Assembly: GCF_001592745.1 (NCBI RefSeq)
Contig: NZ_LUKD01000008.1
Coordinates: 1 to 64,000 of the forward strand
Origin: Bdellovibrio bacteriovorus
GTDB lineage: Bacteria > Bdellovibrionota > Bdellovibrionia > Bdellovibrionales > Bdellovibrionaceae
Length of the DNA: 64,000 nucleotides
Direction: 5' to 3'
Part shown: piece after piece, positions 31,760 through 33,811 of the stretch
Position numbering within the stretch: the stretch's first letter is position 1
Layout: the number at the start of each line of letters is the position of its first letter
Notes under the pieces: generated by a model
Database searches by the model: none
Seen by the model: the letters and a program-made list of their open reading frames with translations, nothing else
What the model was told of the DNA's origin: nothing
Position numbers and translations under genes: made by a program

Positions 31760-33247
31760 CTAAGCTTTTAAATAAAATTCGTGGGGAGTGGGTTTGTATC
31801 CAAACTCAAACCAAACCAGGCCATGTTCTTTTTCCCAAGCTTCAACTGTCGCAAGGTACTCTTTTGGCCAAAGTCCTTTCAAAATTGCTGTTTGCTTGTA
31901 CTGAAGCCACCCATTCACCGAATGAGCCTTTGAGTAGACGCTCTTGCAAGTTGAAAGTAATAATTTTCTAAGCTCAGTGTTCTCCACCTCTTCAAGAACT
32001 GAAAACTCAGGCGCATTTTCATTTTTAGCGATCGCTCTTTGAATCCTGTTCGCTTCAAGAATTGAAACTCCTGTCGTTCTTGCAAGAATTTTAAGCCAGT
32101 CCTCACGGAATATTAATAAGCCCTTGGTGTCCTTCAGTTCCGGTAAAGAGCTGGGACAATCGCTCGCCCTTCGCTGTGGGTAAGCAAAGAACTCCTCGCG
32201 CATTCCCAGCGACATTAAACAGTCTTGAACCATATAATCCATAGGGCTTTCAAAGCTATTTACTTTAAAGAACTCTTCAAGCTCCTCATTCTTCCATCGA
32301 GATTTTTCACGCCATTCAACAGAACTATTCTGATGTGCGTGGAAATTAGGATTCCAGTCGAGCCAGAAAAGACCTCGCGTACCATTTTTAGGGGCTTGTA
32401 AAATCATCGGGTCATAGTCGGAAAAGGAATTAAACTCCACTTTGCCGATTTGTTTTTCAAGGGATTTAAAAATATCTAAAAGGGGACTTCGAAAGGCGAT
32501 GACCTCGACGCCAGTTTTTTGCGTGAGTTCATCACACATCCGACCAATTTCTTCATGACGAGAATACTCGACATCCAGCCAAACAAATTTAGTGGCACTA
32601 AAAAGCTCGGGCAATAACCCATAGTCCATAGGATTTCTTTTTGAATAACCTTCGGCAAATAAAACTAAACTGCCTGCCGAATTTCCGCGCCCAGGGCCTA
32701 AAAGAATATTTTCTTTTTTTGCGTATTCGATAATCTCGCGAATGCCAGCAATAACTTGCTTTTTCTCATGGGAATAAAGCGAGATCTCTTCACGCACTTG
32801 TAAAAGAGCATGCTCATCAACAACGCCTTTTCTTTTTAGATTGTTCTCGCTGATTTCTAGGATGTTCTCCATAACTTGAGTCCTCTCTGTCTCTGACAAT
32901 TCCTTGTCTTGGTTTAAAGAGGTCAAAATGGATTCCAGGCTTTTTATCTGTTGCTGCATTTGGGCGGCACTTTTGCGACTCTCATAAAGACGCGCTTCTA
33001 GGAGTTCTTGCAGTGATTGCTCGTTAGTTTCGCGCAACAATGTCTTAATTTGCTCAAGCGTAAAACCAAGATGTTTGTAGTGCACAATGCGTTTCGCCGC
33101 CGAGACTTGCTCGGTCGTATACACGCGATAACGGCTTTCACTCCGAGTATGCGGAGATAAAATCCCCTTTTCTTCATAGAGGCGCAAAGCTTTAACCGAA
33201 AGCCCTGTGAGTTCGCCAAATTCGCTGATAGTAAGCCAGTTCTTCAT
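31760..33247 (-). CDS. MerR-family regulator fused to a degenerate DnaE polymerase core
   Basis: This encodes 495 residues from the ATG at 33247 (AGAGG 6 bases upstream; an ATG 3 bases earlier is possible). Residues 4-74 are a MerR winged helix (LTISEFGELTGLSVKALRLY, then the YRVYTTEQV wing); 80-145 a coiled coil. From about 150 it follows the DNA polymerase III alpha core: a helix before LGPGRGNSAGSLV (183-195), then KFVWLDVEY (220-228) in place of the PDFDVDF motif, keeping one catalytic Asp (D225) with Trp223 at the other, then GLFWLDW with D297 in place of the third Asp. Later KDTKGLLIFREDWLKILART and SVYSKAHSVNGWLQYKQT match the late palm region. PHP, fingers-tail and OB domains are absent. 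Function inferred: a regulator whose ligand or DNA end is sensed by a polymerase-like module. Stand-alone gene. Confidence 0.72.
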   Translation of the reverse strand: MKNWLTISEFGELTGLSVKALRLYEEKGILSPHTRSESRYRVYTTEQVSAAKRIVHYKHLGFTLEQIKTLLRETNEQSLQELLEARLYESRKSAAQMQQQIKSLESILTSLNQDKELSETERTQVMENILEISENNLKRKGVVDEHALLQVREEISLYSHEKKQVIAGIREIIEYAKKENILLGPGRGNSAGSLVLFAEGYSKRNPMDYGLLPELFSATKFVWLDVEYSRHEEIGRMCDELTQKTGVEVIAFRSPLLDIFKSLEKQIGKVEFNSFSDYDPMILQAPKNGTRGLFWLDWNPNFHAHQNSSVEWREKSRWKNEELEEFFKVNSFESPMDYMVQDCLMSLGMREEFFAYPQRRASDCPSSLPELKDTKGLLIFREDWLKILARTTGVSILEANRIQRAIAKNENAPEFSVLEEVENTELRKLLLSTCKSVYSKAHSVNGWLQYKQTAILKGLWPKEYLATVEAWEKEHGLVWFEFGYKPTPHEFYLKA

Positions 33248-33325
33248 CATGAACCTCTGATACTAAGGCTCAAGTCCGCCCCAAGGGCAGAGTAAAGTAA
33301 AAAAAAAGGGCGGATAGAACGGGAT

Positions 33326-33734: not shown

Positions 33735-33811
<77 letters not shown>

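Follow-up and report, generated by a model that had tools for sequence, protein, structure and literature searches.

The window, a 64,000-nucleotide stretch of Bdellovibrio bacteriovorus DNA, carries a gene whose 496-residue product joins an N-terminal MerR DNA-binding domain to a shortened core of DnaE, the alpha subunit of DNA polymerase III (Table 1). In addition to the MerR_1 match, the N-terminal domain matches the Pfam model MerR (E-value: 3.1e-12), and in an AlphaFold2 model of the protein (mean pLDDT 88.6) it superposes on MerR proteins with Z-scores of about 11-12. Long helices follow residue 79, such that both the winged helix and the coiled coil of the MerR family are present. The initial annotation had already described a MerR winged helix at this position, in agreement with both the Pfam match and the fold; it took the second Met as the start of the open reading frame and its residue numbers are therefore one lower than those used here (counted from M1). 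One orthologue, L063 (G103:C8:109268-110809), has a single in-frame TAG codon between its MerR and polymerase-like parts.

Table 1. Features of the fusion gene, its surroundings and its sister fusions.
Feature	Position	Strand	Remarks
tRNA-Pro(TGG)	33735-33811	-	upstream of the fusion in the window's clade
Operator-like dyad ACTCTGCCC-TTG-GGGCGGACT	33273..33293	-	sole match in the genome at <=3 mismatches
-10-like TAGTAT	33260..33265	-	19 bp after -35-like CTGCCC (33285-33290)
MerR-pseudoDnaE fusion gene	31760..33250	-	496 aa; stop included
MerR winged-helix DNA-binding domain, residues 7-74	33029..33232	-	Pfam MerR_1, 1.8e-15
Coiled-coil linker, residues 79-126	32873..33016	-	helices 80-113 and 120-140 in AlphaFold2 model
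Internal Shine-Dalgarno AGAGGA	32881..32886	-	8 nt before Met127 codon
Putative short form (DnaE-like domain alone), residues 127-496	31760..32872	-	conserved start
GPGRG motif, residues 185-189	32684..32698	-	R188 = E. coli R362, invariant
Remnant of catalytic PDxDxDF	32573..32581	-	W224 (= D401, lost), D226 (= D403, kept)
D298 (D297 of the initial annotation, its third Asp)	32357..32359	-	opposite E. coli E612 in fingers motif VFQLES
Fingers match, residues 365-412	32015..32158	-	Pfam DNA_pol3_finger, 1.1e-4 (at the curated cut-off); E383, D384 invariant
H443	31922..31924	-	= E. coli H760 = M. tuberculosis DnaE1 His787; invariant
MerR-Mur-like sisters	G000 contig C1:1476215 (L046); L012-L015, L042-L045, L050, L051, L143, L146, L147, L157, L158
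MerR-DnaB_C sisters	L162:405-1526, L163:272-1393, L164:217-1335		Pfam 1e-32 to 1e-37
MerR-Lon substrate-binding sister	L052:1501-2586 (G015:C1:1016241)		Pfam 3e-24; operator TTGACCTTTACGTTAGGTCAA
MerR short type, 213-222 aa	L159:270-935, L160:245-883		same operator type

The C-terminal domain is homologous to the palm and fingers of DnaE. Residues 165-217, which correspond to the DnaE palm, match Pfam DNA_pol3_alpha (E-value: 7.9e-9); this model is matched by all 20 aligned orthologues and the finger model by 16 of them. A profile of 20 C-terminal domains finds DnaE structures at an E-value of 1.3e-30, and hhalign against a profile of 15 DnaE proteins gives an E-value of 1.8e-33 over 316 columns. 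Residues 118-479 of the AlphaFold2 model superpose on DnaE with a Z-score of 29.5 (334 residues, 3.0 A), the structural homology starting at model residues 118-123. This match is far beyond chance and the fusion is real. A DnaE-like segment following the MerR domain had been proposed from the sequence, with the lack of a DnaE profile match or of a palm-like fold named as grounds for giving it up; both searches were run and neither outcome was obtained. The alignment proceeds from the start of the palm to the second Asp and then through a strand and a helix, after which it jumps to the fingers, re-entering at LDxxxIxxDDxxxFxLLxxGxTxxVFQ(F/L)ES. It skips the thumb and stops after the fingers, leaving no PHP, thumb, beta-binding or OB domain in a C-terminal domain of 370 residues (versus about 1,160 for DnaE). 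The absence of the PHP, beta-clamp-binding and OB parts was correctly noted before, on which both length and alignment agree; the deletion of the thumb was overlooked, as were the operator and internal start described below.

Catalysis by DnaE depends on three Asp residues, two of which are usually supplied by a PDxDxDF motif (E. coli D401 and D403, with D555 as the third). In the 20 homologues, the position of D401 (residue 224) is occupied by Trp (9/20) or His (11/20), while D403 is kept as D226 in every one, as the initial annotation had it for the window protein. Its choice of D297 (here D298) as the third Asp is rejected: profile alignments put this residue in the fingers, where GLFWLDW aligns with VFQ(F/L)ES (E. 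coli Q610/E612) and not with D555. The counterpart of D555 is absent from the homologues according to profile alignments, its strand being either deleted or represented by R/K-x-Pro (two chimeric DnaE profiles score 1261 and 1260 bits, respectively). With the first Asp lost in 20/20 homologues and no third one, the protein is very unlikely to act as a polymerase; an active polymerase was rejected, as two of the three catalytic Asps, the thumb and PHP are all gone. The earlier proposal stands as to the fusion and the dead core: profile, fold and conservation support an inactive polymerase core joined to a MerR domain that binds DNA. Its third Asp is abandoned.

Of 369 Bdellovibrionota genomes, 22, from at least four families, have full-length or partial homologues. 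The distribution is patchy, with the fusion missing from many close relatives. A scan of GTDB contigs, made with one degenerate motif from which absence outside the phylum cannot be read, returned sequences from Bdellovibrionota only. The C-terminal domains of the fusions form one clade (SH-aLRT 100) outside both DnaE1 and DnaE2. G008 and G015, both from the genus of the window, hold the other clade's type of fusion, which suggests horizontal transfer of the gene. The MerR-domain tree is weakly resolved and gives no dating of the fusions. Searches for carriage by phages or plasmids found no match with both MerR and DnaE domains, and the three viral contigs that came up encode ordinary phage DnaE. 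Between close orthologues, dN/dS is 0.08-0.11 for the whole gene and 0.03-0.13 for the C-terminal domain; the fusion is under purifying selection. Loss of catalytic residues might be expected of a decaying or chance fusion without function, but these dN/dS values, the monophyly of the domain across the phylum, its invariant residues, and the conserved operator and internal start make that explanation extremely improbable, and a pseudogene or chance fusion is rejected on these grounds.

The sequence upstream of the gene (TTTACTCTGCCCTTGGGGCGGACTTGAGCCTTAGTAT) contains a near-perfect dyad, with 19 bp between CTGCCC and TAGTAT. Only the last ~50 bp before the gene are conserved between species, DNA farther upstream being unalignable. 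In the distal clade the promoter reads TTGACC-19 bp-TATGGT with the symmetry TTGAC...GTCAA. Judged by sequence, the gene thus has the putative operator dyad and the 19-20 bp promoter spacer of the MerR family. Because the dyad of the window's clade is offset, overlapping the -35 element instead of lying centrally, it may serve for repression instead of activation in that clade. When 14 genomes were searched for the operator pattern with up to three mismatches, it was found at the fusion gene itself in 13 of them, from two clades (there was none in G011). The other matches are the promoter of a MerR-Lon paralogue in G015 and three-mismatch matches in G012 and G022, the latter at about the level of a reversed-pattern control. 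As close matches occur almost only before its own gene, the fusion looks autoregulated, apparently with no target other than itself.

Activation of other genes is common among MerR regulators, and the protein could be an ordinary regulator of one or more distant targets, with the DnaE domain as a ligand pocket and with autoregulation and the internal start as secondary traits. Since the search tolerated only three mismatches, more degenerate targets may be present elsewhere in the genome. The placement of the operator at the gene itself in 13/14 genomes, the remaining matches being a paralogue promoter and two at control level, argues against this explanation, as does the lack of any conserved neighbouring target gene between the two clades. 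It is decidedly unlikely. As the neighbours are not conserved between the clades, no partner gene is needed.

The coding sequence contains a second putative start, at Met127. This codon is ATG (GTG in L061) and is conserved in 20/20 homologues. A Shine-Dalgarno motif is present at the Met127-type site in 33/33 genes of the DnaE type and the Mur-ligase-like sister type, the corresponding count for the remaining internal Met codons in frame being 15 of 227; a formal p-value for this comparison overstates the case because the sequences are related. The Arg four codons before the internal start is encoded by AGG in 31/32 genes, AGG making up 7% of Arg codons elsewhere in them. Shared ancestry alone is insufficient to account for this, since the motif and the AGG codon are kept even in homologues that have diverged nearly to saturation at synonymous positions (pS about 0.8). 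This start falls where the DnaE-like region begins in the model (residues 118-123 onward). Because motif and start are conserved at the point where the DnaE-like domain begins, a separately translated, free form of the polymerase mimic (residues 127-496) is predicted.

The same MerR subfamily includes sister fusions with a Mur-ligase-like domain, with DnaB_C and with a Lon substrate-binding domain, as well as a short type (Table 1). A TTGAxx-type promoter lies directly upstream in all sister types, and TTGA(C/G) occurs within 90 bp upstream of 33 of the 39 genes of the class, versus 41 of 236 control genes. The organization is the same in the Mur-like sisters and largely the same in the DnaB_C sisters. 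The former (~330-340 aa) resemble the central domain of Mur ligases and have a degenerate P-loop, VTGVNGLEKTA; a model of one (pLDDT 85.1) matches cyanophycin synthetase and Mur ligases with Z-scores of about 19. They share the upstream operator type and a conserved internal SD-ATG. In G002, G005, G006, G012, G020 and G022, a Mur-like sister lies near contig coordinate 12,000-13,000. The DnaB_C sisters keep the GKT of Walker A (3/3), have their own promoter of the type TTGAGC-19bp-TATTGT and carry an SD-like AAGGA ahead of an internal Met. No clear internal SD is found in the Lon or short types, and the ~100-aa C-terminal domain of the short type has no significant Pfam match.

R188, G189, E383 and H443 (E. 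coli R362, G363, E688 and H760, respectively) are invariant in the 20 homologues, and a pocket, likewise conserved, is left between the palm and the fingers. Equivalents of R639 and R709 are kept in the clade that includes L058 and are mostly missing from the window's clade. The palm-fingers core might still hold some of a binding site for (d)NTPs or an alarmone, making the protein a sensor of replication state or nucleotides with feedback; the short form would then act on the replisome (e.g. by titrating a partner) and the full-length form would hold its level constant. The invariance of R188, G189 and H443 and the retention of both further Arg residues in one clade favour this, as does the fact that the class includes C-terminal portions of DnaE as well as of DnaB. 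A patchy gene (22/369), missing in many close relatives, is however unlike core cell-cycle control, two metal-binding Asps are lost, and a role in replication would not explain the Mur-ligase-like and Lon domains. This explanation is considered unlikely.

The DnaE inhibitor nargenicin was considered as a specific ligand. Its contacts in M. tuberculosis DnaE1 are Gln638, Arg667 and His787 (PMC8922275). The His is invariant among the fusions, one clade retains the Arg (10/20) while that of the window has lost it, and Gln638 is replaced by Trp in the window protein. Nargenicin binding to DnaE1 depends on DNA, and the thumb is missing here. As the contacts are only partly kept, nargenicin itself is not claimed as the ligand, and it is unsupported in this role in the window's clade.

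The surroundings of the gene differ between genomes. At the tRNA-Pro site of the window's clade, relatives without the fusion carry other genes. The DNA past the 3' end of the tRNA gene varies among Bdellovibrio genomes (an endonuclease-like gene is found there in G006), and because of these differences the site looks like a variable region. In three distal-clade genomes, a toxin-antitoxin-like pair adjoins the fusion or lies within about 3.5 kb of it (L075:8061-8716, L076:10243-10885 and L079:9465-10050). Patchy distribution, differing genomic sites, a position beside tRNA-Pro that is otherwise filled in relatives and these nearby pairs would all suit a conflict module, in which the copies of DnaE, DnaB, Mur ligase and Lon bait phage or plasmid proteins that attack the host enzymes, or themselves jam foreign replisomes. 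Neither an integrase nor a known defence gene is fused to the gene or regularly found with it, however, and there is no sign of any phage partner; such a module seems improbable.

The model preferred here, put forward as a serious possibility and held tentatively, is an autoregulated, two-form MerR regulator in which the dead, thumbless DnaE core acts both as a target-mimic sensor and as a decoy. The full-length dimer would sit on its own over-long promoter. A ligand of DnaE (an inhibitory small molecule or protein, a replisome partner or a nucleotide) would bind the mimic domain, upon which the MerR domain would remodel the promoter. Both forms would be made, the short one in excess, and both would soak up the ligand such that the real polymerase is spared. 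Ligand binding, activation and sequestration are steps that we infer from this arrangement. Several observations speak against the model: the nargenicin contacts are kept only in part, nargenicin needs DNA to bind DnaE1 and the thumb is gone, more degenerate operators may exist elsewhere, the offset dyad of the window's clade may mean repression, and the Lon sister has no clear internal SD. The initial annotation had supposed that the core senses a signal and controls DNA binding, which is reasonable; the operator and internal start indicate the more specific self-regulating, two-form plan. No observation singles out DNA ends or replication stress, two of the signals that it had suggested.

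With the Mur-ligase-like, DnaB and Lon substrate-binding sisters as further baits, the fusion may belong to a class of one-gene, self-regulating guards in Bdellovibrionota, a possible but more tentative proposal. Each would consist of a MerR domain and a copy, often inactivated, of a domain of an essential enzyme (DnaE, DnaB, Mur-ligase-like or Lon substrate-binding), acting as bait for agents directed at the real enzyme and as a separately translated sponge. If this is true, essential enzymes have been copied, disarmed and made into sensors of their own attackers. Each fusion would name a target under attack and offer a direct way to screen for the attacker, natural inhibitors of DnaE, DnaB, Mur ligases or Lon among them.

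Several known systems resemble parts of this arrangement. The C-terminal domain shares with DnaE the start of the palm (GPGRG and the second Asp) and all of the fingers domain, in the same order and fold, and differs from it in the missing PHP, thumb, beta-binding and OB domains, in the W/H replacing the first Asp, in the absent third Asp and in its fusion to MerR. A hypothetical 480-aa protein of Butyrivibrio proteoclasticus pCY186 (L113:3728-5167) is likewise a short DnaE-like protein with a shortened thumb region and an altered catalytic motif (CIRIDVE); it has no MerR domain, is encoded near dnaX and DnaA/Hda-like genes and falls outside the fusion clade. NarR/NgnU, a DnaE homologue encoded beside the nargenicin gene cluster of Nocardia, has been proposed to be a decoy against nargenicin (PMC8922275), a proposal that provides a precedent for a DnaE decoy. 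It is likened here by description and not by sequence, and is not described as fused to a regulator. In the literature searched, most of it freely accessible, no description was found of a MerR domain fused to DnaE or DnaB or of such a class, in line with the earlier statement that no regulator of this layout is known to have been described.

The closest counterparts in plan are TipA of Streptomyces lividans and AlbA of Klebsiella oxytoca, which also consist of a MerR domain, a coiled coil and a C-terminal effector and have their own promoter with an over-long spacer. TipA, which yields TipAL and TipAS through its two start codons, has been described as a minimal autoregulated MDR system (PMC7762955). 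In the AlbA operator the spacer measures 19 bp, and no other copy of this operator was found in the genome (PMC10189885); the putative operator of the window gene is similarly found only at its own gene when up to three mismatches are allowed. Like TipA and AlbA, the fusion would come in two protein forms, with the short form consisting solely of the effector domain, as predicted from sequence here. The effector itself differs: it is a dead DnaE palm-fingers core and not TipAS, whose domain (PF07739) is absent from the Pfam matches at E-values up to 10. The preferred model follows the TipA/AlbA plan of sensing and sequestering, but a target mimic would take the place of the binding domain. If it is correct, the TipA/AlbA principle would extend from purpose-built drug pockets to target mimicry, and what goes beyond that kind of regulator would be the target-mimic principle together with the repeated, parallel choice of domains.
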